A program made the position numbers and the translations under genes. From the NCBI GenBank assembly GCA_034520365.1, contig JAXHNP010000007.1, positions 310,001 to 374,000 on the forward strand: DNA of 64,000 nt. The letters run 5' to 3'. This document shows, in pieces, positions 4,595-60,178 of this stretch. The notes under the pieces were generated by a model. The model saw nothing but the letters and a program-made list of their open reading frames with translations. It searched no databases and was not told where the DNA came from. The first letter of the stretch is position 1; each line of letters opens with the position of its first letter. This DNA is from Desulfobacterales bacterium (lineage in GTDB: Bacteria > Desulfobacterota > Desulfobacteria > Desulfobacterales > Desulfosalsimonadaceae).

Positions 4595-4615
4595 CGCTTC
4601 AGACAAATCACGAGC

Positions 4616-4690
4616 GGTCGGCGCGGTGGCCGACCCTACGACGGGCGTGTTTTCCCCTTGCGTAGGGCAGGCCACCGTGCCTGCCTGCAA
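4616..4690. repeat. Family A palindromic element, partial
   Basis: Core of family A: GGTCGGCGCGGTGGCCGACC hairpin, spacer, then the GTAGGGCAGGCCACCGTGCC arm. Neither terminal inverted repeat is visible, so this is a fragment. Confidence 0.75.
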
Positions 4691-4719
4691 AACTTAAATA
4701 TGATGGCGACGTAAAAAGT

Positions 4720-9516: not shown

Positions 9517-9546
9517 ATTAGGTTTTGGGTATTAGGTATTAGGTTA
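9517..9546. repeat. Family C GTATTAGG/GTTAGG simple repeat
   Basis: Short run of TATTAGGTTTTGGGTATTAGG units, the same repeat class found at 43048, 50446 and 58378. Confidence 0.5.
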
Positions 9547-9564
9547 ATGAAATCGATGATTTAT

Positions 9565-9665
9565 GGTCGGCACGGTGGCCGACCCTACGATGGATCGGGT
9601 TTTTCCCCATTCGTAGGGCGGGCCACCGTGCCCGCCTGAAAAATAGATAGAACAAATTTACCGTG
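9565..9665. repeat. Family A palindromic element with one terminal repeat
   Basis: Contains GGTCGGCACGGTGGCCGACC and the GGGCGGGCCACCGTGCCCGCC arm, then the terminal GAACAAATTTACCGTG. The flanking 9666-9721 is matched, in inverse orientation, by 15278-15323. The two copies therefore share an extension beyond the normal element end. Confidence 0.75.
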
Positions 9666-9738
9666 CCTCAGTGCCTTTAAAGTTATTTATAGGCTCGGTC
9701 CCGGGCAAACGGCCCGGAGGAAACAATTCTAAGGAACC

Positions 9739-9890
9739 AAACAATATATGTCGTTATTCCAAAGTGTTGTGCTATTGTCATTCCGAGGAACGATAGTGAC
9801 GAGGAATCTTGTTGTAAAGATTTCTCACTGACGCTCGAAATGACAGTATGGGCTGATTTTCAGGGCCTTTTTGAGTTAGTTTCTGCAAAA
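9739..9890. repeat. Family B1 inverted repeat element
   Basis: Core palindrome 9776-9845 (TGTCATTCCGAGGAACGATAG ... CGCTCGAAATGACA), with conserved flanks AACAATATATG on the left and TTTTTGAGTTAGTTTCTGCA on the right. Copies of the same long form lie at 48207 and 49750, each just past the 3' end of a minus-strand gene. Confidence 0.7.
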
Positions 9891-9929
9891 ATGCCGGGGT
9901 GGCGGCATAAACCGCTTTTTACGCTGCCA

Positions 9930-12628: not shown

Positions 12629-13090
12629 ATGGCACTTTATTTGGTTCAGCACGGCAAAAATTTAAAAAAGGATGTGGACCCCGACCAGTCCCTTTCGGAG
12701 GAAGGGATTGCGGACGTGAAACGCATTGCCGAAACCGCGGCCGGGTATAACGTGAAAGTGGGCGAAATCAAACACAGCGGTAAAAAGCGGGCCCGGCAGA
12801 CCGCAGAGATATTTGCGGATTACCTCCAGGCCGGCGGCGGGGTCCAGGAAATGGCGGGGATTAAAGCGCTTGACGATGTGGTCCCTGTCGCCCAAAGCGC
12901 GGATCCCGGAGGAAATATGATGCTGGTTGGGCACCTCCCGTTTATGGAGCGCATCACCAGTTATCTGACCGCCGGCAATCCGGATATCACTGTGATGAAA
13001 TTCCAGAACGGCGGCATCGTCTGCCTGGATCAGCTCGATGATACCAGCGACTGGGCCATTAAGTGGACGCTTCTGCCCAACATCGGTTAA
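12629..13090 (+). CDS. SixA-like histidine phosphatase superfamily protein
   Basis: A 153-residue single-domain member of the histidine phosphatase superfamily closest to SixA phosphohistidine phosphatases. The nucleophile is H8 in LVQHGKN, where the usual RHG Arg is replaced by Gln. The second catalytic His is H102 in LVGHLPFMERI, and HSGKKRARQTAEI near residue 49 supplies the phosphate-pocket Arg. A strong AGGAGGT precedes the ATG. It probably removes phosphate from phospho-His on a phosphorelay or PTS-type partner, but no partner is encoded next door. Confidence 0.78.
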   Translation: MALYLVQHGKNLKKDVDPDQSLSEEGIADVKRIAETAAGYNVKVGEIKHSGKKRARQTAEIFADYLQAGGGVQEMAGIKALDDVVPVAQSADPGGNMMLVGHLPFMERITSYLTAGNPDITVMKFQNGGIVCLDQLDDTSDWAIKWTLLPNIG

Positions 13091-13215
13091 AACAGCCGAA
13101 TATGCCGAAATTTATTGCTTCTCCATCCTTTTTGTGGCAGATATTTTCATTTATAAACTTTCATGAACGTTAATTTACGTTAAAAGCTCGCGCGCTGCGA
13201 TCAGGCAGAAATAGG

Positions 13216-13364
13216 CACGGTAAATTTGTTCTATCTATTTTTCAGGCGGGCACGGTGGCCCGCCCGCAACAATGCTGACATTTTGTAGGGTCGGCCACCG
13301 TGCCGACCTTACATGCGAGCAACCCCATGGTTATGGGGTTGTTCGCCAAAACAAATTCAACGTG
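13216..13364. mobile_element. Full-length family A miniature element with 10-bp flanking repeats
   Basis: A 149-base element from CACGGTAAATTTGTTC to the inverse end ACAAATTCAACGTG. It is flanked by perfect direct repeats CAGAAATAGG at 13206-13215 and 13365-13374. Inside lie three hairpins: GGCGGGCACGGTGGCCC..., a GTCGGCCACCGTGCCGAC arm, and AACCCCATGGTTATGGGGTT. The right flanking repeat carries the AGGA that serves as ribosome-binding site for the next gene. Confidence 0.85.
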
Positions 13365-13382
13365 CAGAAATAGGATACCGGG

Positions 13383-15277: not shown

Positions 15278-15424
15278 ACCGCTGCCCGGGACCGAGCTAA
15301 AAATAACTTTAAAGGCACTGAGGCACGGTAAATTTGTTCTATCTATTTTTCAGGCGGGCACGGTGGCCCGCCCTACGAATGGGGAAAAACCCGATTCATC
15401 GTAGGGTCGGCCACCGTGCCGACC
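15278..15424. repeat. Family A element with extended left flank
   Basis: Element proper is 15324-15424, from CACGGTAAATTTGTTC through the GGCGGGCACGGTGGCCCGCC and GGTCGGCCACCGTGCCGACC hairpins. The left extension (TAACTTTAAAGGCACTGAGG and a GCCCGGGACCGAGC palindrome) is shared in inverse orientation with 9666-9721. Confidence 0.75.
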
Positions 15425-15487
15425 ATAACTTTTTGATTTAATAAATATAATATTTTATACCCCACTACACCTTTTGGGGACCAATTT

Positions 15488-18654: not shown

Positions 18655-18854
18655 GTCGGCACGGTGGCCGACCCTACGACGATTATTCACGGCACATCTC
18701 ACTGTAGGCGGGCGGTCGTGTCCGCCGTTCAATTTTTGGCCGGCACGGTGGCCGGCCCTACGACGGTTGGTCCCAGGCACATCCTGCGTAGGGCGGGCCA
18801 CTGTGCCCGCCTCAAAATAGAAGGACAGGCCACTGTGCCCGCCTCAAAATAGAT
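18655..18854. repeat. Composite family A repeats
   Basis: Two successive GG(T/C)CGGCACGGTGGCCGGCC-type hairpins, a GTAGGGCGGGCCACTGTGCCC arm, and a tandem duplicate of GGCCACTGTGCCCGCCTCAA. A nested or rearranged family A insertion filling the gap before pyrE. Confidence 0.7.
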
Positions 18855-20565: not shown

Positions 20566-20621
20566 TTACAACTCCCTGAATTTAACCGGCATAAAAACAA
20601 TTGGCCTCAGGCTTCCGATGC

Positions 20622-20742
20622 TGTCATTTCGGGGAACGACAGTGACGAGAAATCTTGAAAATTCATGCAATTATAAGATTTCTCGCTGGCGCTCGAAATG
20701 ACAACTGAGCCATTTTTTACTGTTAAGTTAACGACATTGAAT
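20622..20742. repeat. Family B2 inverted repeat, left end missing
   Basis: Palindrome CTGTCATTTCGGGGAACGAC ... CGCTCGAAATGACA, with the right terminal region GTTAAGTTAACGACATTGAA. The left terminal repeat is not recognisable. Confidence 0.65.
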
Positions 20743-22684: not shown

Positions 22685-22735
22685 GTTACTCCCTTTTTAT
22701 GACCTTTTTCTAAGATGATCAGCGATTAATGCCCA

Positions 22736-22889
22736 CACTCAGCGCCATTCACTTAAAAGTAGAAATGGGCTCGGTTGTCATTTCGAGCGGCAGCGAGAAA
22801 TCTTACAATCGCATGATTTTTTCAGATTTCTCGTCACTGTCGTTCCTCGAAATGACAGGGGCGGAATGCTAAGGTTAATAACATTGTGT
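22736..22889. repeat. Family B2 element, inverse orientation
   Basis: Terminal repeats ACTCAGCGCCATTCACTTAA on the left and AAGGTTAATAACATTGTGT on the right surround the TTGTCATTTCGAGC ... CTCGAAATGACA palindrome. It lies in the leader between the predicted promoter and the acyl-CoA dehydrogenase start. Confidence 0.65.
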
Positions 22890-22899
22890 CCATGCTGAT

Positions 22900-22928
22900 T
22901 TATTATCGGCATCCGCCTCGGCTGTCAA
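22900..22928 (-). promoter_or_regulatory. Candidate promoter for the acyl-CoA dehydrogenase operon
   Basis: On the minus strand TTGACA (22928-22923), 17 bases, then TAATAA (22905-22900). A near-consensus sigma-70 arrangement facing the dehydrogenase gene. Confidence 0.55.
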
Positions 22929-23095: not shown

Positions 23096-23133
23096 CGCTG
23101 GCGGTAAACCCTAAAAACCCTGGACGCACGGGT

Positions 23134-23220
23134 GGTCGGCACGGTGGCCGACCCTACGAAATGCCGGCATGCCTTCGTAGGGCAGGCCACCGCGCCTGCC
23201 TGAAAAATAGAACAAATTTC
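23134..23220. repeat. Family A element, one end preserved
   Basis: GGTCGGCACGGTGGCCGACC hairpin, the GTAGGGCAGGCCACCGCGCC arm, then AATAGAACAAATTTCCCACC, a decayed version of the terminal repeat. Lies in the etfB leader. Confidence 0.7.
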
Positions 23221-23251
23221 CCACCAAGAGCGAAAGAAAAGGAAGGCGCGC

Positions 23252-24046: not shown

Positions 24047-24060
24047 GACAGGTTAACACT

Positions 24061-24208
24061 CAATGTCATTCTCTTTAGCATTCCGCCCCTGTCATTTCGA
24101 GGAGCGATAGTGACGAGAAATCTTAAAAAATCATGGCAATTGTAAGATTTCTCGCTGCCGCTCGAAATGACCACCGAGCCCATTTCTGCTCTTAAGTTAA
24201 TGGCATTG
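24061..24208. mobile_element. Family B2 element with 8-bp flanking repeats
   Basis: From CAATGTCATTCTCTTTAGC to AAGTTAATGGCATTG around the TGTCATTTCGAGGAGCGATA palindrome. Direct repeats GGTTAACA lie at 24051-24058 and 24209-24216, the second one including the stop codon of the GGDEF gene. Confidence 0.55.
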
Positions 24209-24210
24209 GG

Positions 24211-25332
24211 TTAACAGCTGTTTTGGGCCTCATAAAACACCACCTGGTTGCGGCCGCTGTTTTTGGCCTGGTACAAGGCCTTATCCGCCTCCTCAAACAG
24301 GTTCTCCCGGTTTTGCGCCAGCCGGGGCACACACGTGGCAACACCCAAGCTGATCGTGGTTTTTATTTCATGGCTGTAATAAAAAAGCGTCATGCGCTCA
24401 ACCTCAGCGCGGACCTTTTCCGCCAGCTCCACCGCATCCGGCCCTTCATGGTTTAAAAGAAGCATCACAAACTCCTCGCCGCCGTATCTGGCGATAAAAT
24501 CCGTATCCCGCTGAAAAATGCCGGAGAGGACATGGGCAATTTTTTTCAGGTACGCGTCCCCGGCCAGATGGCCGTAGGTGTCGTTGACCGGTTTGAAGTG
24601 ATCGATATCGCAGATGATAACGGACAAGGGAATGGCGCTTCGGGCCGCCGCCTTCCACTGGACATTGAAAATTTCATCAAAATAGCGGCGGTTATACAGG
24701 CCGGTGAGCACATCCACCCGGCTGATTTTTTCGACCTCTTCGGATTTTAATTTAAGTAAGTGCTCATTTTCCAAGGCGTCCCAGTATTCCCGGTTGCCCC
24801 TGAAAGCCACCAGGATCATATAGGCGGCAAAAAGGCAAATCAGAAAAACGATGATATTATTGGTCTGCAGAAACAGCATCAGCAGGGCGGCCGGCATCAG
24901 CATGATCAGGTTATAGACAACCGAAGTGCGCCGGGAGGGCATAAAGGCGACCACGCCGCCGGAATCAAGCCCCACCGTGCTTGCCAGCATAATCATCTTG
25001 GAGGTCAAATCCTCGGGCTGAATCATGAAATAGGCAAACCCGACCCCCCAGGTAAGGGCTGTGGCATATACGCTCGTAAAAAACGCGCAGTAGTTGAGCC
25101 GCCGGTTGATTTGGTCGAATTTGTCGTAGAATTTAAACTGCACCACCCGGAAACAGGCGATGAGAGCCATTAGCGAGAGAAAAATGATGGAGAATATGAG
25201 GTGCCGTTTGTAGAACCCGTCCACAGAGAGCACCGCAATGGTGACGGCCAGATAAAAATACATGCCGATGGTGGACCGGTTTTTAAGATCATCGATCACG
25301 CGCCGGTTGATACGATGCCGCTCAAATGTCAT
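24211..25332 (-). CDS. Membrane-bound diguanylate cyclase (GGDEF)
   Basis: A 373-residue protein. Residues 20-190 form about five or six transmembrane helices in paired hairpins. The GGDEF domain from about 205 to 365 has a canonical ARYGGEEFVMLL active site and the metal- and GTP-binding DIDHFKPVNDTYGHLAGD. It should make cyclic di-GMP at the inner membrane. A typical RxxD inhibitory site is not obvious just before GGEEF. It lies 158 bases downstream of the HD-GYP regulator gene, a cyclic-di-GMP hydrolase candidate. Confidence 0.9.
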   Translation of the reverse strand: MTFERHRINRRVIDDLKNRSTIGMYFYLAVTIAVLSVDGFYKRHLIFSIIFLSLMALIACFRVVQFKFYDKFDQINRRLNYCAFFTSVYATALTWGVGFAYFMIQPEDLTSKMIMLASTVGLDSGGVVAFMPSRRTSVVYNLIMLMPAALLMLFLQTNNIIVFLICLFAAYMILVAFRGNREYWDALENEHLLKLKSEEVEKISRVDVLTGLYNRRYFDEIFNVQWKAAARSAIPLSVIICDIDHFKPVNDTYGHLAGDAYLKKIAHVLSGIFQRDTDFIARYGGEEFVMLLLNHEGPDAVELAEKVRAEVERMTLFYYSHEIKTTISLGVATCVPRLAQNRENLFEEADKALYQAKNSGRNQVVFYEAQNSC

Positions 25333-32029: not shown

Positions 32030-32088
32030 TGTGTCTGTCCTGCATTCCTTATTGATATCTGGTTAAGATTCCATTATGTTTATAGAGG

Positions 32089-32272
32089 CTAAATTTGTTC
32101 TGACTGTAACGCTCATAACTATGGCGCTGTTCGCAAGGGCGGTCGGCGCGGTGGCCGACCCTACGAAATTCCGTCATGCCCATCGCAGGGCGGGCCACCG
32201 CGCCCGCCCATTGAATACCATGCGTAGGGCGGGCCACCGTGCCCGCCCCAAAAAACAGAACAAATTCATCAT
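32089..32272. repeat. Family A element with internal duplication
   Basis: Ends CTAAATTTGTTCTG and CAGAACAAATTCATC are inverse of each other. Inside are one GGTCGGCGCGGTGGCCGACC hairpin and two GCGGGCCACCG arms. No clear flanking direct repeat is visible. Confidence 0.7.
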
Positions 32273-32312
32273 AATATTCCATATTATTCATGACCCATTT
32301 AATTGAATTATG

Positions 32313-37800: not shown

Positions 37801-40379
37801 CCGGCGACAACCAGCATCTATTTATTGCGGATGACACCCTTGCTGCCAGGCAATGGTATCACATTGCCTGCGTGTGGGATCTAAACGCGTCTCCACAGGT
37901 CTTGATTTATATCAACGGCATTGAAGCCGCCATCACCACCAGCTCCACAGGCGTTTCTGATGTCCAGGCCACCACCGAAGATCTGGTCATCGGTTTCAAC
38001 CAGCTGACAGGCGGAAGCTTTACCGGCACCATGGACGAGGTTCGGATCTGGGATGAGGCCAGAACCCAGGCCCGGATAAGGGACACCATGTGCCATAAAA
38101 TCACGGACGCGGAATCCGACTACCTCGATCTTGTGGGCAACTGGCGGTTTGACGAACAGTGCGGTGTTGTCTGCAACGACGCTTCCGCGTATGGGAATAT
38201 CGGCATCACCAATGCCGAGCGGGTCTGCTCTGAAGCGCCCATTGGCGATGACAGCGCTTATGATTATAATGGAAGCGGTGCCGGCGGAAGCTTTCAGGTA
38301 TTGAATTTTGCTTCAAACTTAGCAGACAATATAACGGTGACCGAAGACGGCGGTGACTGGGATCCGTCACTGGATTCCTGCCTCCATGCCTACCGGGTGG
38401 ATATCCCCCCGGAAAGTGTGGGCCAACCGTTATTCTGGAAAAGCCTGGGATTGGCTCCCCATTACTGGGGCGTTTTCAAATCCGGCGGTACTGATCCGAC
38501 CTATAAAGTGGTTTACACTTATACCGGCTATCCATACACCAATGAAGAAACCTTTAATCTGGCATTTCGCAACCACAACTGTGAATCCTGGAAAAGCGCC
38601 AATGCGGATCAGGATAAAGTTAACGACCTTCTGACCCGGGCCGGATTCAGCGGCACGGAATTCATCCTGGGCCAGGATGTGGATCCGAGAAATGCCATTG
38701 ATTTCGACGGGACGGATGATTACATAGAGGTCAGCGACACGGTAACCAATGGCGATCTTGATCTCACCACTACCGGAACCATAGAAGCATGGGTGAATAT
38801 TTCAACACATCAGGCCAACGCGGGCATTATTCATAAAGGCGATGGCACAAATGATTCCTATTCCCTCTACATGAGCGGCGCTTCCAATGATCAAGTATAC
38901 TTTACTGTTGATGACGGATCAACGCCTAACACGATCAACAGTACCACCACACTAAAAGCAGGTACCTGGTATCATGTTGCCGGAACTTGGAACGATGGTG
39001 CGGACACGATGACGCTTTATATCAATGGGGTTCAGGAAACAACAGGCTCCACAGTTACTGCTCAGGAGACGGATAATAATCTTTTCATTGGGGTTAACCA
39101 GACAGGGCCGAATTATTTTAACGGCAAAATCGATGAAGTCCGTATCTGGGACGTTGCCAGAAATCAGGATGCAATTCGCGACACTATGTGCAAAAAAGTT
39201 ACCAGCAGCGACACCGGATGGTCCAATCTTGTGGGCTACTGGCGATTTGACGAGGAAACCAACAGCGTCAACTGCCCGGACGCATCCGGCAATGGAAACG
39301 ACGGCACGATGACGAATTTCGGCACCGACGGCAGCACTGATATTCTGGCGGCCCGGGTCTGCTCTTCCGCCCCCATTGGTGATGACAGCGCATGGGATTA
39401 TTACGATGGCGGACCGGGGACGGTTTCCACCCAACTGGCCCATCTAGATGGCGATTATATATTCGCCACAGAAAACAGCGGGCCTTGGACGGAGGATTTC
39501 TCGGGTCTCCAAATCTACCGTGTCGACGAAGCACCGGTTTACCCGCCGGATATCGGAACGAATCCCTACCCCAGCGCACCAAGTGATCCTTATCCCAGGT
39601 CTCCGAATGGCCTGACCCCGCCGATAGACCCCAATAATGATTTAGATTTTGATGATAATTGGTCTTCTATTGATTATTCTCGGTACTGGGGTGTATTTGC
39701 TACTGACTGGGGAACAGCCCCTCCGAGTTATGATGTCATGTATTATTACACGGGCAATCCCAATGTTCCGGATAAAGCGGATCCGTCTGATCCTGAAGCT
39801 CCTCAGATCGGTCTGGCTGAACGGCCAGATTATTGTTTCGCAACATGGTCGGATTCCGGTGCGAATTGGGCTTTTGGTACCGGACGCCTGGAGTTGTTCA
39901 ACCAGGATCAAAACACACCAAAAAAGACAAATCCGGAATATGTCCTTGGGGGTAAAAACCAACCCTTGGCCATATCTCTTATCTCCTTTACCGCCGACCC
40001 TGATGCGGACAGGGAGTGCATAGACATTGCCTGGGAGACCGCCACCGAGGTTGAAACCATCGGGTATTATCTGTGGCGCAGCACGAGCCGGGACGGGGAA
40101 TATGAAAGAATCGAGGACAGCTTTGTCAGCGCAAAATCCATCGATTCAACCCAGGGGGCCAAATACGCCTACCGGGACTGTGATATCTATCTGGGTGATG
40201 ATATGAATTATTTCTATAAACTCGAAGAAGTGGATATGGACAACACCCGAGACAATCCGTTTTACGGCCCCATCGGCCCGGTTTCCGAACACGGCAGTGC
40301 TGATCAGGTGACAAGTGCCAGGAATCGCAGCAATAGTTCAGGCAGCAGCTCAACCTGCTTTATTTCCATACTGAAATAA
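34824..40379 (+). CDS. Giant modular secreted protein (DUF2341, DUF11, SdrD-B-like, LamG, FN3-like)
   Basis: 1851 residues. Signal peptide 1-30 (RRKILLLAVAAFFLLGTAQP, cleavage after FA). DUF2341 at about 32-150 (FPTDWSYRKSHVIN). DUF11-type repeats lie near 340-500, 500-665 and 775-905, with an SdrD B-like domain near 668-770 (SGTVFDDNGTGTGGIDGDGN). Two tandem copies of a LamG-type lectin module plus an APIGDDSA(Y/W)DY segment are at about 910-1285 and 1289-1700, and an FN3-like domain near 1716-1810. It ends in a Ser/Asn-rich linker, then CFISILK. Probably a cell-surface or extracellular adhesin or scaffold. ATG 34824 follows AGGA; a TTG at 34758 is less likely. Confidence 0.85.
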   Translation: MQKFLIRRKILLLAVAAFFLLGTAQPLFAAFPTDWSYRKSHVINSAAGAGTDSGENVYLDGNCQADFGDVRFVSSDGVTELDYWMETGSLDPGVSAVFWVKVADDLGAANQTIYIYYGNTTGTVTTTSNGDNTFIFFDDFDGDLSTKWTVEKTLDGGFIAIQPGDFLRCGGGQTGGTFGHTSLGSSPAYDNFTDGAIEVRLKQSVNALGEIAYRGNYVPNAGTGYKGRFDCRTGNETPHMRPPYYNWAGFGTAVTRFGSGTNTWYRGSVTVTSSGGSYTHRIFKNDALMSTTTDTTYAGDGEIALQNHYGSFSDYDWVAVRNFVYPEPAHDAWGAESSLQADVSATKSVALSKDADGNGVITPGDTMQYNVKIYNTGNVVALGTELTDNLPAETTYTGSWTATNGTVTHNAGQISWTGSVTADPTGVIKTEITFDVTVNSGTSISTVVSNQGTVSYDSDNDGTNGPAADILTDGDPYTAGIQTTDFTVGGSAQATGTKTAALAVDADGNGVITPGDTLEYTIVITNMTGFVPIAAIEITDVIPPNTTYDDTFTPTVTDYEVTPGVPNPLNTDHTIEIFPPLPTGRYPEELVIKGIDIGPVADSPDNIVEIKFRVILDDPMAAGVTQISNQAVGFYDSDSDGTNDTYQGTDGDPGTLGNQPTVSDIYIGTISGTVFDDNGTGTGGIDGDGNQNGAEPGISDVTVTLYDYLIDSFYFYGDTITDSDGNFIFTELAPGDYDVRETDPDYYVSTTPNDVSVTLEDSPSTGDSEVVNYGDQVNGNADLEVVKHCTTVTPDGTNQLVFVITVTNDGPDPATNVALTDDLTSLISAGLSNIEYTLDGGARNSWTSPLTLGDMATYPDPSYSHTVRIYADVSETFSPTENTATVVSDIFDPATGDNTSSCTNQPCPGARRAMQFNPATNASVTVASAPSLQLTTSGTVEAWINVDEFQANSELISKGNTAETFNIGLCGGDSGDKFSGGTAQNIGFALYDTGDNQHLFIADDTLAARQWYHIACVWDLNASPQVLIYINGIEAAITTSSTGVSDVQATTEDLVIGFNQLTGGSFTGTMDEVRIWDEARTQARIRDTMCHKITDAESDYLDLVGNWRFDEQCGVVCNDASAYGNIGITNAERVCSEAPIGDDSAYDYNGSGAGGSFQVLNFASNLADNITVTEDGGDWDPSLDSCLHAYRVDIPPESVGQPLFWKSLGLAPHYWGVFKSGGTDPTYKVVYTYTGYPYTNEETFNLAFRNHNCESWKSANADQDKVNDLLTRAGFSGTEFILGQDVDPRNAIDFDGTDDYIEVSDTVTNGDLDLTTTGTIEAWVNISTHQANAGIIHKGDGTNDSYSLYMSGASNDQVYFTVDDGSTPNTINSTTTLKAGTWYHVAGTWNDGADTMTLYINGVQETTGSTVTAQETDNNLFIGVNQTGPNYFNGKIDEVRIWDVARNQDAIRDTMCKKVTSSDTGWSNLVGYWRFDEETNSVNCPDASGNGNDGTMTNFGTDGSTDILAARVCSSAPIGDDSAWDYYDGGPGTVSTQLAHLDGDYIFATENSGPWTEDFSGLQIYRVDEAPVYPPDIGTNPYPSAPSDPYPRSPNGLTPPIDPNNDLDFDDNWSSIDYSRYWGVFATDWGTAPPSYDVMYYYTGNPNVPDKADPSDPEAPQIGLAERPDYCFATWSDSGANWAFGTGRLELFNQDQNTPKKTNPEYVLGGKNQPLAISLISFTADPDADRECIDIAWETATEVETIGYYLWRSTSRDGEYERIEDSFVSAKSIDSTQGAKYAYRDCDIYLGDDMNYFYKLEEVDMDNTRDNPFYGPIGPVSEHGSADQVTSARNRSNSSGSSSTCFISILK

Positions 40380-40384
40380 ACTTT

Positions 40385-40491
40385 AATCACCATGTCATTA
40401 ACCTTAGCCTTCCGTCACTGTCATTTCGAGGAACGACAGTGACGAGAAATCTTAAAAATTAAAAGATTCCTCGCTGTCGCTCGGAATGACA
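40385..40491. repeat. Family B2 element, right end missing
   Basis: Left end ATCACCATGTCATTAACCTT, then CTGTCATTTCGAGGAACGAC ... CGCTCGGAATGACAG. Lies between the giant protein gene and the C25 peptidase gene. Confidence 0.65.
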
Positions 40492-44954: not shown

Positions 44955-45053
44955 CACGGTAAATTTTTCTGTCTATTTTTCAGGCGGGCACGGTGGCCCG
45001 CCCTACGCGAGAATGCCGACATTTTGTAGGGTCGGCCACCGTGCCGACCTTAC
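44955..45053. repeat. Family A element, right end missing
   Basis: Starts CACGGTAAATTTTTCTGTC, then the GGCGGGCACGGTGGCCCGCC and GGTCGGCCACCGTGCCGACC hairpins. It stops before the third hairpin and right terminal repeat. Confidence 0.72.
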
Positions 45054-45187
45054 TTGCTTGCTTGAATTCCGGTTGAATCGGATTTATTTTTAACTTTCCG
45101 ATTTTATATCCTGATCCAATTGATTGATCAGGAAATCAGCTAAAAAGAGGGATCGGTTTTTATACGGTCCGCAAAGGAGATACCCAT

Positions 45188-48160: not shown

Positions 48161-48206
48161 GGTTCCAAGCGGCAGTCCGCTGGGGTACCTCCAACCCACT
48201 CAACAA

Positions 48207-48366
48207 TATATCATGTTATTCCGGAGCGTTCTGCTGTTGTCATTCCGAGGAACGATAGTGACGAGGAATCTTATTTATGCTTATTTATAAAAGATTTCTC
48301 GCTCTCGCTCGAAATGACAGTATGGACTGACTTTGACCGCCTTTTTTGAGTTACTTTCTGCAAGAA
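48207..48366. repeat. Family B1 inverted repeat element
   Basis: Long form as at 9739: left AACAATATATC, core 48238-48318 and right TTTTTTGAGTTACTTTCTGC, just past the 3' end of the B12-radical SAM gene. Confidence 0.7.
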
Positions 48367-49749: not shown

Positions 49750-49910
49750 CAATAATATATATAGCAATGCCAAAATGTTACGCCGCTGTCATTCTGAGGA
49801 GCGCCAGCGACGAGGAATCTTGATTGTTCAAGATTTCTCGCTCTCGCTCGAAATGACAGTATGGACGGATTTTAAATGCTTTTTTGAGTTAATTCCTACA
49901 AAAATAAATA
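49750..49910. repeat. Family B1 inverted repeat element
   Basis: Core 49787-49858 with right part TTTTTTGAGTTAATTCCTAC, just past the 3' end of the siroheme decarboxylase gene. The match to the 9739 copy extends toward the gene stop (ACCGCTTTTT and GCCATCAG). Confidence 0.68.
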
Positions 49911-50475: not shown

Positions 50476-50549
50476 GTATACCTCTATGCAAATAACTAGT
50501 TTATCAAATGAATGGTGTTATTTCCAGGGCAAAAGAAAGCGGTTACCGG

Positions 50550-50701
50550 TCCGGGAAATTTGTTCTATCTATTTTTCAGGCGGGCACAGTGGCCCGCCCT
50601 ACGCGACAATGCCGACATTTTGTAGGGTCGGCCACCGTGCCGACCTTACATGCGAACAACCCCATGGTTATGGGGTTGTTCGCCAGAACAAATTCACCGT
50701 G
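50550..50701. mobile_element. Full-length family A miniature element with 10-bp flanking repeats
   Basis: Left end TCCGGGAAATTTGTTC (slightly decayed) to right end GAACAAATTCACCGTG, with all three hairpins including AACCCCATGGTTATGGGGTT. Direct repeats CGGTTACCGG at 50540-50549 and 50702-50711. The identity runs on for a total of 19 bases (50539-50557 and 50701-50719). The right repeat includes the mtnA stop codon, so the element entered at the mtnA 3' end. Confidence 0.82.
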
Positions 50702-50704
50702 CGG

Positions 50705-51793
50705 TTACCGGTCCGGGAAGAGACGGCGGATATCTGTCTCATTTGCCTCACAGATCCCCCGCTCAGTGATAAAGGCCGTCACCAGGCGGGCCGGGGTGAC
50801 ATCAAAGGCATAGTTGGCGGCCGGGCTGTTCTCCGGCACCAGGAGATAATCTTTATCCCCCGTAAAACCCGGCATGTAGCGGACCTCATCCGGATCGCGC
50901 GCCTCTATCGGGATATCCGCCACGCCGTCCCGGATGGTCCAGTCAAAAGTGGAGGATGGAAGCGCCACATAAAACGGAACATCATTGTCTTTTGCGGCCA
51001 GCGCCTTTAAGTAGGTGCCGATCTTGTTGGCCACATCGCCGGTGTGCGTGGTCCGGTCGGTTCCCACAATCACCATATCTACCAACCCATGCTGCATCAA
51101 ATGACCGCCCGCATTATCTGTAATTACGGTATGGGGGACCCCCTGACGGCCCAGCTCCCATGCGGTAAGCCGCGCCCCCTGATTAAGCGGCCGGGTTTCA
51201 TCCACCCATACATGGACGTTTATCCCCTGGTTAAACGCTTCATAAATCGGCGCGGTGGCCGTGCCGTATTCAATGCAGGCAAGACTTCCGGCATTGCAGT
51301 GGGTCAGGATATTGACAGGTTCCCCGGATTTTTGGCGGGCGATCGGCGCAATCAGGGTCAGGCCGTGGCGGCCGATGGCCCGGGAGTTTTCCACCTCTTC
51401 TTCGGCAATGGCGGCGGCTTCGCTGCGGGCGGCATCGATTCGGGCGGAACTGTCTGAATGGGCCAGCACCTTTTTAAGCGTGCGATCCACCGCCCAGGAA
51501 AGATTCACCGCCGTGGGCCGGGCGGCCTTGATCCGCGCCGCCGCGCCACGGACGGAATCATCATCCGTTCCGGCGCTGCCCGCGTTTTTAAGGGCCACAA
51601 ATACCGCGTAAGCCCCGGTCACACCGATCAGCGGGGCCCCGCGCACGACCAGCTCCCTGATGGCGTATACGGCATCATCCAAGGCGTTTAATTCCAGAAT
51701 TTCCAGATGATGCGGAAGCCGACGCTGATCGATCACCCGGACGCAATCCAGTTCCTCATCCCGCCATATGGGCCGCATTGTGCATTCGTTCAT
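50705..51793 (-). CDS. mtnA: S-methyl-5-thioribose-1-phosphate isomerase
   Basis: A 362-residue methionine-salvage enzyme converting methylthioribose-1-phosphate to the ribulose form. The catalytic Cys region is ILTHCNAGSLACIEYGTATA and the catalytic Asp is in VIVGTDRTTHTGDVANKIGT. PLNQGARLTAWEL is the third family signature. The start at 51793 (MNECTMRPIW) could instead be the Met five residues later. Its 3' end was the target of a family A element, which left the last codons intact. Confidence 0.92.
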   Translation of the reverse strand: MNECTMRPIWRDEELDCVRVIDQRRLPHHLEILELNALDDAVYAIRELVVRGAPLIGVTGAYAVFVALKNAGSAGTDDDSVRGAAARIKAARPTAVNLSWAVDRTLKKVLAHSDSSARIDAARSEAAAIAEEEVENSRAIGRHGLTLIAPIARQKSGEPVNILTHCNAGSLACIEYGTATAPIYEAFNQGINVHVWVDETRPLNQGARLTAWELGRQGVPHTVITDNAGGHLMQHGLVDMVIVGTDRTTHTGDVANKIGTYLKALAAKDNDVPFYVALPSSTFDWTIRDGVADIPIEARDPDEVRYMPGFTGDKDYLLVPENSPAANYAFDVTPARLVTAFITERGICEANETDIRRLFPDR

Positions 51794-51955: not shown

Positions 51956-52528
51956 GGTTTTGTCTCAGGGCTAATTTGTTCTGTATCCAAATCGAAATCG
52001 CTATCGCTATCGGGATCGGGATCGAAAAGAATATGACCCTTGGACACGAAAAACTGGACGTCTATCGCCTTTCAATAGGCTACGTTGCATGGGTTTACAA
52101 GAAGGCCGACAGCCTGAACGGAGTTCATCGGCCCGCCCGGGATCAATGGCTTCGGGCCAGCCAGTCGATACCGCTCAATATCGCCGAAGGTAATGGCAAG
52201 ACCGCGGAAGCCGACCGAAGGCGTTATTTCGAAATCGCTCGTGGCTCCGCGCTTGAGTGCGCGGCGATTCAAGATGTGCTGGTTGTCGGCAAGGCGCTGG
52301 ACAAGATGGAAAGCCGGAACCACAAGGATGAACTCGACCGTATGGCCGCGATGCTCAGCCGTCTCGGCGGAAGAGGATACCAAGTTCGAGAGGATCAGGA
52401 AGTCTACAGCATCGATTTCGATCCCGATAGCGATTTCGATCCCGAGGAAAACGAATCCCAACCTTAGCTTTAACAGGACCGGGGGTATGGATTTTGCGGT
52501 TAGAACAAATTAGCCGTGGGTTTTGTCT
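51956..52528. mobile_element. Four-helix-bundle-carrying element, 553 bp with 10-bp flanking repeats
   Basis: Element 51966-52518. The left end CAGGGCTAATTTGTTCTG and the inverse right end (CACGGCTAATTTGTTCTA read on the minus strand) match at 16 of 18 bases and match the ends of the family A miniatures. Perfect direct repeats GGTTTTGTCT lie at 51956-51965 and 52519-52528. Inside, degenerate CGATCCCGATAGCGAT blocks (51991-52026 and 52411-52445, inverse of each other) bracket the single gene. No transposase-like gene is present. The right flanking repeat abuts the -35 box of the rhodanese operon. Confidence 0.82.
52033..52467 (+). CDS. Four-helix-bundle protein (S23/23S rRNA intervening-sequence family)
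   Basis: A 144-residue helical protein of the four-helix-bundle/S23 family. Key stretches are KLDVYRLSIGYVAWVYKKAD, RDQWLRASQSIPLNIAEGNG (the signature), RRRYFEIARGSALECAAIQD, and a final helix. Relatives occur in 23S rRNA intervening sequences and beside diversity-generating retroelements (Avd); they bind nucleic acid. ATG 52033 is chosen over a frame open from 51922. The C-terminal SIDFDPDSDFDPEENE is encoded by the right internal repeat. It is the only gene of the 553-bp mobile element. Confidence 0.85.
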   Translation: MTLGHEKLDVYRLSIGYVAWVYKKADSLNGVHRPARDQWLRASQSIPLNIAEGNGKTAEADRRRYFEIARGSALECAAIQDVLVVGKALDKMESRNHKDELDRMAAMLSRLGGRGYQVREDQEVYSIDFDPDSDFDPEENESQP

Positions 52529-58377: not shown

Positions 58378-58401
58378 TTAGGTGTTAGGTATTAGGTGTT
58401 A
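58378..58401. repeat. Family C GTTAGG repeat at the hisS end
   Basis: TTAGGTGTTAGGTATTAGGTG. On the minus strand it encodes the last residues (LTPNT) and stop of hisS. Confidence 0.55.
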
Positions 58402-59647
58402 AAACAGATAATATGCCGGATAAAATTCCGCTGATCCCGATTTCGGTCTGCTCTTTGCTCCGCATATTCCGTAAAACAACGCGGCCCTGTTTAAGCTCCT
58501 GATCCCCGACCATAAGCACATATCCGGCGCTCATGCGGTTGGCCCGCTTCATCAGGGCTTTCAGGCTCCGATCCGAAAAATCGATCTCGGTTTTAATGCC
58601 CTCGCGCCCGAGTTCGCACGACCACTCAAATGCCTTTTCCTGCGCCGCCGCCCCCATGGCTGCGATAAAGATATCCGGCGGGAGCTCGGAGACGGATGTC
58701 TTGCTCAAGACCAGATCCACCAGCCGATCCAGGCCAATGGCAAAGCCAATGGCCGGCTGGCCCGGCCCGCCCAGGACCTCAACGAGATGATCGTACCGGC
58801 CGCCGCCGGCCACCGCATTCTGGGCCCCCAGCTCAGCGGTCTGTATTTCAAAGGCGGTACGCGTATAGTAATCCAGACCCCGGACCAATCGGGGGGCAAG
58901 CACATAGGGAACCGCCATTTGGTCAAGTGCCGCCTTTACGGTATCAAAATGTCGGGCGCAATCATCGCACAGGTAATCGGTAATGGCCGGGGCATTTTCC
59001 ACCACCGCCCGGCATCCCGGCACTTTGCAGTCCAGCACGCGTAAGGGGTTGGTATCTTTTCGCCGCAGGCAGTCGCTGCACAGGGCTTCGCTGCTGGCGG
59101 TGAGCATTTCAGAGAGCGCCTGTTTGAATGCCGGCCGGCAGGCAGGGCATCCCAGGGAATTCAAGTGGACTTCCAGACCCGTAATATGAATGCGCTGGAA
59201 AAACACCGTCAGCATATAAATCAGCTGCGCATCGATATAGGGCGCCTCAATGCCGAACACCTCGGCGTTTATCTGATAAAATTGACGGTACCGCCCCTTT
59301 TGCGGCCGCTCCTTGCGAAACATCGGGCCGATCGTATAAAGCTTTTGGATGGGATCCCTGGCATACATCCGCTGCTGGATGTAGGCGCGCACCACCGAGG
59401 CGGTGGCTTCGGGCCGCAGGGTGAGGAGTTCGCCCTTGCTTGACGGAAAGGTATACATCTCCTTTTCCACAATATCGGTGTGCTCGCCGATACTGCGCTG
59501 GAAAAGCTCCGTCTTTTCAAGAATCGGCACCCGTATCTGCCGGAAGCCGAAGGCTTCAAAAAGCATGATCGCGGTTTCCTCGATATGCTTCCACAGCTCG
59601 ACTTCGCTTGGCAGAATATCTTTAAAGCCTCGAATTAACTGAATCAT
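58385..59647 (-). CDS. hisS: Histidyl-tRNA synthetase
   Basis: A 420-residue class II synthetase. Motif 1 is near 10-40, motif 2 is MFRKERPQKGRYRQFYQINAE, and the His-specific LVRGLDYYTRTAFE and AVAGGGRYDHLVEVLGG are complete. The C-terminal anticodon domain starts near 325. Between them lies a zinc-ribbon-like CPACRPAF ... CSDCLRRKD ... CDDCARHF insertion, seen in many bacterial HisRS. The very end (LTPNT) is encoded by a GTTAGG repeat. The promoter is probably near the TATAAT on the minus strand at 59728-59723. Confidence 0.93.
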   Translation of the reverse strand: MIQLIRGFKDILPSEVELWKHIEETAIMLFEAFGFRQIRVPILEKTELFQRSIGEHTDIVEKEMYTFPSSKGELLTLRPEATASVVRAYIQQRMYARDPIQKLYTIGPMFRKERPQKGRYRQFYQINAEVFGIEAPYIDAQLIYMLTVFFQRIHITGLEVHLNSLGCPACRPAFKQALSEMLTASSEALCSDCLRRKDTNPLRVLDCKVPGCRAVVENAPAITDYLCDDCARHFDTVKAALDQMAVPYVLAPRLVRGLDYYTRTAFEIQTAELGAQNAVAGGGRYDHLVEVLGGPGQPAIGFAIGLDRLVDLVLSKTSVSELPPDIFIAAMGAAAQEKAFEWSCELGREGIKTEIDFSDRSLKALMKRANRMSAGYVLMVGDQELKQGRVVLRNMRSKEQTEIGISGILSGILSVLTPNT

Positions 59648-59760
59648 AACTGCTTGCCGGTCAATCCGCCATGCGTATTTCGGATTGCAAAAAAAATTAA
59701 TCTTTATTAATATTTAACCTAAATTATAGTTTCGGGCAGCCCTTTGAATAAGTATAATCT

Positions 59761-59905
59761 CAATGTCATTAACTTTAGCCTTCCGCCGCTGTCATTTCGA
59801 GGAACGACAGTGACGAGAAATCTAAAAAAATCATGAAATTATAAGATTTCTCGCTGGCGCTCGAAATGACAACCGAGCCGATTTTCAATCTTAAGTTAAT
59901 GGCAT
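59761..59905. mobile_element. Family B2 element with 12-bp flanking repeats
   Basis: A 145-base element from CAATGTCATTAACTTTAG to the inverse end TTAAGTTAATGGCAT around the CTGTCATTTCGAGGAACGAC palindrome. Perfect direct repeats TAAGTATAATCT at 59749-59760 and 59906-59917. Best-preserved copy of family B2. Confidence 0.72.
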
Positions 59906-59969
59906 TAAGTATAATCTGGCATTTATATTTAAATATTTTATTTGGGTCAATATATATTCCGGGTTCCGC

Positions 59970-60122
59970 CACGATGAATTTGTTCTGGCGAGAAACCCCA
60001 TAACCATGGGGTCTCTCGCATGTGAGGTCGGCACGGTGGCCGACCCTACAAAATATCGGCACAGCCCGCGTAGGGCGGGCCACCGTGCCCGCCTGAAAAA
60101 TAGATAGAACAAATTTACCGTG
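59970..60122. mobile_element. Full-length family A miniature element, inverse orientation
   Basis: A 153-base element from CACGATGAATTTGTTCTGGC to GAACAAATTTACCGTG, with the AACCCCATAACCATGGGGT hairpin at the left and the two GC hairpins following. Perfect direct repeats CGGGTTCCGC at 59960-59969 and 60123-60132. Inserted 46 bases upstream of panB. Confidence 0.87.
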
Positions 60123-60178
60123 CGGGTTCCGCCCCATGGATTAACATCCGGAAATGTTTTCTAAAAAGGAGTTTTCTT

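Follow-up and report, generated by a model that had tools for sequence, protein, structure and literature searches.

REP/BIME repeats are not known to have a target duplication, and terminal inverted repeats combined with a target duplication do not fit the single-strand mechanism of Y1 transposases. Some eukaryotic elements integrate just upstream, via polymerase III factors. Among bacterial insertion sequences, the ISAs1 family is described, in the available portion of one report, as having 14-22-bp ends that start with CAGGG and a 10-bp direct repeat (PMC11946415). For the intervening sequences of 23S rRNA, an old hypothesis casts the encoded ORF as a mobility component (Ralph and McClelland 1993, in the accessible text of PMC4990558). 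Here we describe repeats in a window of 64,000 nucleotides, positions 310001-374000 of contig C7 of the host genome G000 (8 contigs, 4.33 Mb; 4,328,727 bases). Taken as a whole, they are very probably non-autonomous MITEs of the ISAs1 family, transposed in trans, with insertion biased toward -35-like hexamers. MITEs of this kind are known; the promoter-proximal targeting appears to be the new point.

Miniature elements in the window

Two complete miniature elements, at 13216-13364 and 59970-60122, are each flanked by a perfect 10-bp duplication. A preliminary description of this DNA had reported three such copies. The third, placed at 50550-50701, lies instead between 18-bp direct repeats (50540-50557 and 50702-50719), which possibly record an aberrant insertion or a conversion. 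That description had also counted about seven further partial copies, and we indeed locate seven partial, degenerate or single-ended relatives. A fourth complete element flanked by a target-site duplication (TSD), at 51966-52518, carries a gene and had been missed. The miniature elements and their relatives are as follows (window coordinates; strand where assigned).

13206-13215: TSD CAGAAATAGG, left copy
13216-13364, plus strand: miniature element of 149 bp with ends CACGGTAAATTTGTTCT / CACGTTGAATTTGTTTT
13365-13374: TSD CAGAAATAGG, right copy
50540-50557: 18-bp direct repeat CGGTTACCGGTCCGGGAA, left copy, occupying the place of the element's outer 8 bp (left terminus)
50558-50701, plus strand: miniature element with truncated left end (outer 8 bp missing)
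50702-50719: 18-bp direct repeat CGGTTACCGGTCCGGGAA, right copy
59960-59969: TSD CGGGTTCCGC, left copy
59970-60122, minus strand: miniature element of 153 bp
60123-60132: TSD CGGGTTCCGC, right copy
32085-32273, minus strand: degenerate 189-bp relative, both termini recognisable, without TSD
44955-45057, plus strand: partial copy, single-ended
9527-9692, minus strand: half-element inside a second repeat (A2)
15297-15462, plus strand: half-element inside a second repeat (A2)
23120-23230, minus strand: partial relative with palindromes and one diverged end
4602-4715, minus strand: partial relative with palindromes only
18691-18849, minus strand: cluster of similar palindromes without termini

The RNA fold of the element at 59970-60122 is very stable (z-score -10.7). 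In the A2 repeats (the two window copies and positions 12663 and 12892 of locus L085), a second repeat, AAATAACTTTAAAGGCACTGAGG ... GTGAAGTTACTTAGAAG with CCCGGG hairpins, surrounds half a miniature element; this second repeat is usually single and once forms two tandem units. The window also contains a second palindromic repeat family, GTCATTTCGAGGAACGACAGTGACGAGAAATCTT ..., with copies at 9740-9892, 20582-20738, 22734-22900, 24050-24211, 40379-40458, 48198-48366, 49751-49905 and 59747-59910.

GC-rich palindromes would likewise be expected of REP/BIME repeats moved by a tyrosine (Y1) REP-associated transposase, and the minus strand of locus L105 contains a 290-aa ORF that by eye resembles such an enzyme. 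The complete elements, however, have terminal inverted repeats and 10-bp duplications, and we consider a REP/BIME origin extremely improbable. The duplications speak against it for the complete elements and leave the palindrome clusters at 4602-4715 and 18691-18849 unaffected; the L105 ORF could be relevant to palindrome clusters that lack ends.

Termini and target duplications across the genome

We examined 1,188,740 of the 4,328,727 bases of the host genome (27%), comprising the contiguous stretch C7:1-934000 and further sequence picked around matches, so the element counts are not an unbiased genome census. With the 149-bp element as query, 248 candidate matches are found in the genome, 40 of which were scored. 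The terminus CACGNTNAATTTGTTCT occurs 260 times in the 4.33-Mb genome with at most one mismatch, versus 0 times for its reversed control, which excludes chance. Convergent ends 100-1300 bp apart form 94 pairs in the examined sequence: 56 are short and contain palindromes, and 38 exceed 400 bp.

The 10-mers flanking these 94 pairs are identical in 49 cases and agree at nine or more positions in 66 and at eight or more in 74, versus 2 of 8742 pairings at the last threshold when left and right flanks of different elements are combined. The proposal that these are mobile miniature elements with a fixed 10-bp duplication, which should then recur in most other full-length copies, is upheld by the 74 of 94. 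All-ten matches at the nominal borders never reach 11 bp (49 of 49). The 20 pairs below 8/10 include eight with a perfect repeat whose length is 9, 11 or 12 bp; two more (C6:67074 and C7:162173), with weak end matches, were rejected as evident chance pairings, and no good duplication is seen in the others.

A 17-bp terminal repeat is common to the elements and starts with CACGG or CAGGG, the former being commoner in the miniature elements. These differ from their consensus by a mean of 4.8% (38 aligned; range 0.7-28%, diverged subfamilies included). They are short, lack a transposase, carry terminal repeats and TSDs and are present in many copies, as MITEs are. Genomes from a sister genus of the same family (G013 and G034) contain their own versions, mostly 150-160 bp long with identical termini. 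Of 22 loci there, 13 have a perfect 9- or 10-bp duplication, one matches at 8/9 and one has none; at the remaining seven the pair or a flank is missing, in some cases at contig ends. The exact element pattern searched had no match in the same-genus genomes G001-G003.

For empty sites, the 30-bp flanks of the 66 best elements were joined and searched in the examined genome sequence. The 101 joined-site matches are mostly self-matches or shared palindromes, and a clean empty site appears only for the gene-carrying element C7:450426-450977 (duplication CTTGTATCTG). The repeat that hosts this element has other copies without it: three of them are 100% identical to the joined 50-bp site over 47-50 bp, a fourth is 92% identical, and with 150-bp flanks these repeat copies span the site at 89-97% over 111-125 bp. 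The preliminary description had proposed sister genomes for this comparison; the case obtained here lies inside the host genome. Nesting also occurs, the element C6:783610-784185 lying within a miniature element.

A gene-carrying form with the same ends

The fourth complete element of the window shares its termini with the miniature elements and encloses a reading frame.

51956-51965: TSD GGTTTTGTCT, left copy
51966-52518, plus strand: gene-carrying sibling of 553 bp, termini as in the miniature elements
52033-52467, plus strand: ORF of 144 aa, 23S_rRNA_IVP / four helix bundle protein (PF05635, TIGR02436)
52519-52528: TSD GGTTTTGTCT, right copy

Elements of this longer form, mostly 547-589 bp, are bounded by the miniature-element termini and 10-bp duplications. 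The window ORF scores 69.1 bits against PF05635 (cut-off 33.8). The host genome contains 45 matches to the IVP family, and the 35 copies checked lie in elements with these ends; in each of the 59 other genomes covered by the relatives search, the family has no more than 13 matches. From the 38 end pairs longer than 400 bp, three with duplications below 5/10 were left out of this analysis; besides the two chance pairings, this concerned C2:608886, where a perfect 9-bp repeat is present.

The reading frame spans at least 130 codons in 26 of the 35 copies and is shortened in nine. Among 25 of the 26 (the outlier C2:600964, 58% from the consensus, was dropped), we count 13 unique synonymous and 30 nonsynonymous changes, a pN/pS of 0.72 at which purifying selection on the IVP gene is not detected in these 25 copies (P = 0.21). 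The gene-carrying form differs from its consensus by a mean of 0.8%, compared with about 5% for the miniature form; it looks the younger of the two and has likely spread recently. Two copies reach 1076 bp and are head-to-tail dimers, both joined by the same kind of junction; since each has its own duplications, the dimer probably transposed as a whole.

G000:C7:281069-282144 (L075): head-to-tail dimer
G000:C7:378838-379913 (L077): head-to-tail dimer
G000:C6:930857-931962: perhaps a head-to-tail dimer

Relatives of the window protein, up to 92% identical, occur in records of several phyla. Among the best 80 loci in other genomes, only L196 combines clear ISAs1-type ends and a 10-bp duplication; 21 others have weak or spurious end pairs only. 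L196, from a Myxococcota MAG, holds at 366-1023 a four-helix-bundle gene with an early stop, the ends CAGGGCAATCGCAAGA and the TSD GACCGCGAAA, and is a second capture of such a gene by ISAs1-type ends. With one of 80 loci between clear ISAs1-type ends, the gene looks like cargo. The literature searched, with most subscription papers and ISfinder outside it, yields among the matches listed no four-helix-bundle gene between ISAs1 ends.

Two further arrangements of these genes were seen. By eye, most of the four-helix-bundle genes at L159-L208 (50 of the 80 loci L159-L238) are flanked by inverted arrays of NATCGN hexamers, outside which the sequence is unlike between loci; this suggests that the NATCGN-flanked gene is an independently mobile unit. 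Rhodopirellula solitaria CA85 has at least eight loci of a related gene (L223, L224, L226, L227, L228, L229, L230 and L234), and all but L227 show near-constant outer borders, GTTCTGGCACAAAGTGGCC ... CCGTTA, which we take to resemble integron cassettes.

A presumed ISAs1 source

The host genome contains six DDE_Tnp_1 matches, and the one on contig C8 ends in CACGGCTAATTTGTTCT, the terminus of the elements. It consists of two overlapping transposase frames. Against the NCBIfam ISAs1 model (NF033564, cut-off 70), the second scores 148.6 bits over positions 117-314, and the first 42.9 bits over 1-114, below the cut-off. An ISAs1 transposase is thus assigned to this presumed source copy only, the miniature and gene-carrying elements having no transposase gene. 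The preliminary description had called for a transposase gene with matching ends; the right end of the C8 copy matches, and the 2.2 kb preceding it contain no recognisable left end.

The upstream C8 frame is interrupted by an in-frame stop, which may be damage or a gene border. At the junction of the two frames, an A7 run is followed by GTAGG; two other genomes, with proteins of 73% and 55% identity, have the identical junction (CCCAAAAAAAGTAGG; L103 1454-1483, L244 and L245), which points to a programmed -1 frameshift and away from decay. A second, different ISAs1 insertion sequence in the host genome has other termini and a 10-bp TSD, GGCATCAGGA. No intact source with the termini of the elements was seen in G000, G001-G003, G013 or G034; G013, despite many similar elements, has no ISAs1 match, and G034 has a 20-bit fragment only. 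As a yardstick, the direct repeat of plasmid-borne ISAs1 copies is 10 bp long at 11 of 12 distinct sites and 9 bp at one.

An ISAs1-family insertion sequence is the likely source of the miniature elements, and from the shared ends and the duplication length we infer movement in trans by an ISAs1 transposase. Such a DDE enzyme would recognise the termini and join them to the target with a 10-bp stagger. The hairpin-rich elements of about 152 bp would derive from a shortened element, and those of about 550 bp would have arisen when a four-helix-bundle (S23/IVP) gene was captured.

A different mobility factor could be imagined in the S23/IVP protein itself, on which the gene-less forms would then depend: 35 of its 45 family matches were checked and lie between these ends, and most gene-carrying copies looked intact. 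Several observations make this highly improbable. A conventional transposase with the same end exists, the 30 nonsynonymous and 13 synonymous changes reveal no purifying selection (P = 0.21), the frame is shortened in nine of 35 copies, and elsewhere clear ISAs1-type ends with a TSD accompany the gene at one of the best 80 loci. Given the lack of detectable selection and an ISAs1 transposase that has the ends, we rejected S23 as the leading mobility gene.

About half of the well-preserved elements lie at a near-fixed distance from promoter-like hexamers

Flank tests were restricted to the 66 of 94 elements with duplications of at least 9/10, the other 28 being left out. In an unbiased column scan for information in both orientations, the strongest columns lie about 10 bp outside the duplication and read TTGACA outward, starting 8-9 bp beyond it. 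Counted from the start of the duplication, offset 18 has the exact hexamer in 10 flanks and offset 19 in 9 (19 of 132 flanks); the 38 other offsets scanned account for 7 together, none of them at 17 or 20. With one mismatch allowed, TTGACA is found in 21 flanks at offset 18 and 14 at offset 19, and the reversed TGTCAA in at most 5 at any offset (offset 19; mean 0.9). Per element (offsets 17-20, both sides), the hexamer is exact in 18 of 66, within one mismatch in 33 and within two in 56. The 33 elements without a match within one mismatch include three of the four complete window copies. The exception is the 59970 copy (TTGACC, 17 bp, TATAAA), whose boxes point away from the element and toward a histidyl-tRNA synthetase gene (58385-59647, minus strand).

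59922-59927, minus strand: -10-like box TATAAA
59945-59950, minus strand: -35-like box TTGACC, 9 bp outside the TSD, with a 17-bp spacer to the -10-like box

That the spacing to the -35-like hexamer is fixed is a matter of measurement. Statistically, insertions show a strong bias to sites with a sigma70-type -35-like hexamer at this distance, which puts the element 18-19 bp upstream of the hexamer and leaves the hexamer intact. Such fixed-distance -35 targeting by ISAs1 does not appear among the matches listed in the same literature search, which has the same limits. ISAs1 parentage, gene-carrying siblings and this fixed distance all go beyond the preliminary description.

Whereas only 11% of the sequence is outside mechanical ORFs, 46 of the 66 elements are, so that either survival or the choice of site plays a part. 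Random insertion from which only the copies upstream of promoters survived could account for this enrichment. Selection of that kind would hardly produce a spacing that falls within 1 bp from 10 and 9 exact hexamers to none, and as the sole cause it is very improbable.

A TATAAT-like box (at most two mismatches, spacer 16-18) is present in 20 of the 35 hexamer flanks and absent from 15. The same box appears in 8.6 flanks on average, and in 16 at most, over 1000 shuffles, and at 316 of 1326 intergenic TTGACA-like sites (24%; P = 2.4e-5). For the exact hexamer, 13 of 19 flanks have a -10-like box, versus 52 of 133 other intergenic sites. There is also a weak TG upstream of the -10-like box. All these boxes are identified by sequence match. 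Within 350 bp, an ORF of at least 80 aa begins on the promoter side in 20 of 26 cases and on the other side in 13 of 25, and either element end can face the promoter-like sequence.

These data bear on what the insertion complex, proposed here to recognise a promoter on one side of the target, might read: the -35 DNA itself or bound RNA polymerase. By DNA alone, the ISAs1 transposase would read a TTGACA-like hexamer 8-9 bp outside its staggered cut, and promoters would be struck merely for containing it. A bias that is sharp to 1 bp and centred on the hexamer agrees with such recognition, as do the 15 of 35 hexamer flanks that have no -10-like box at spacer 16-18. Against it stand the weak TG and a frequency of -10-like boxes (20 of 35) above that of other intergenic TTGACA-like sites (316 of 1326); we rate it as quite possible, though short of probable. 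This excess of -10-like boxes tends to favour promoters themselves as the target; survival of harmless insertions could add to it.

The offset in other genomes and other ISAs1 copies

In G013 and G034, which belong to another genus, the hexamer (at most one mismatch) lies at offsets 17-19 in 11 of 22 loci (17-20 scanned). Autonomous ISAs1 copies from the same order have it exactly in G299 and G305 and with one mismatch in G295. For G280, we examined 30 loci of the 40 listed places and obtained 17 full copies, 12 of them with a 10/10 duplication. The hexamer (at most one mismatch) accompanies six of these 12 autonomous copies; among the 34 flanks of all 17, eight have it at offsets 18-19 and every other offset scanned has at most one. 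Ends and duplication were identified at L309, L333 (= L369), L334, L336 and five G280 copies (L362 = L337, and L363-L366); they were not found at seven ISAs1 loci (L335, L338, L339, L340, L342, L367 and L368), and L347 has a doubtful end pair.

The second ISAs1 insertion sequence of the host genome has no offset hexamer, and plasmid-borne ISAs1 has one at only two of 12 distinct sites. The plasmid sample comprised 17 loci chosen from 60 of 693 records; three loci from Pseudomonas represent a single site, no convincing ends were found at L400, L409 or L414, and 12 distinct sites with ends and duplication result. In the available text of a large survey, ISAs1 is over-represented between convergent genes (PMC9208149). 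Frankia, in the portion of the report consulted, has ISAs1-type insertions inside a coding gene under selection for gene loss; three of four lie at one locus, and a preferred site was suggested (PMC11946415). The bias thus holds robustly for the genomes examined, whereas these results do not establish it for the ISAs1 family as a whole.

Targeting could alternatively proceed via protein, with the transposase complex contacting the RNA polymerase holoenzyme (for example sigma region 4 or the alpha-CTD). This would suit the fixed distance, the promoter-like anatomy beyond the hexamer and the single direction of the signal, with at most 5 flanks per offset for TGTCAA versus 21 and 14 for TTGACA at offsets 18 and 19. 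It sits less easily with the five reversed hexamers that share offset 19, somewhat above the mean of 0.9, and with plasmid ISAs1 sites, where the bias is not clear (2 of 12); we regard the protein route as possible but doubtful. A still more specific version, in which an ISAs1 branch and its derivatives would be guided by the sigma70 promoter complex (bound RNA polymerase and not the DNA word alone), sparing the host promoter by insertion 18-19 bp upstream of -35 boxes, is one we entertain tentatively as somewhat unlikely.

Comparison with known systems

If the spacing reflects targeting, a bacterial DDE transposon would enter regulatory DNA without destroying the promoter. Targeting would help to explain the tolerance of so many copies, would supply upstream regions for regulatory evolution and could offer a handle for finding promoters or for placing DNA beside them. 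The gene-carrying form bears on whether 23S-rRNA-IVP genes are mobile, since here the gene appears to travel as cargo between ISAs1-type ends.

Unlike REP/BIME repeats, the elements described here have TSDs. With the ISAs1 family they share a 10-bp duplication and, in the host genome, an ISAs1 transposase gene with the same terminus; their own termini start with CACGG or CAGGG. They differ from it in having no transposase of their own, in many ends of CACGG, one base off CAGGG, and in sites that prefer -35-like hexamers. If the polymerase-guided reading were true, they would be a bacterial counterpart of polymerase-guided eukaryotic retrotransposon integration. The gene-carrying form resembles the 23S rRNA intervening sequences of Coxiella and Leptospira in encoding a PF05635 protein (available text of PMC4990558), but the window copy does not lie in an rRNA gene (the window has no rRNA match, only a tRNA) and has ISAs1-type ends and a TSD. 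The Chunjie MITE of Geobacter uraniireducens is likewise short, non-coding and multi-copy, according to the sections available of a review (PMC10969869); in our elements, by contrast, the likely parent is ISAs1, a word absent from the main text of that review, some copies carry a gene, and the spacing to promoter-like hexamers is fixed.
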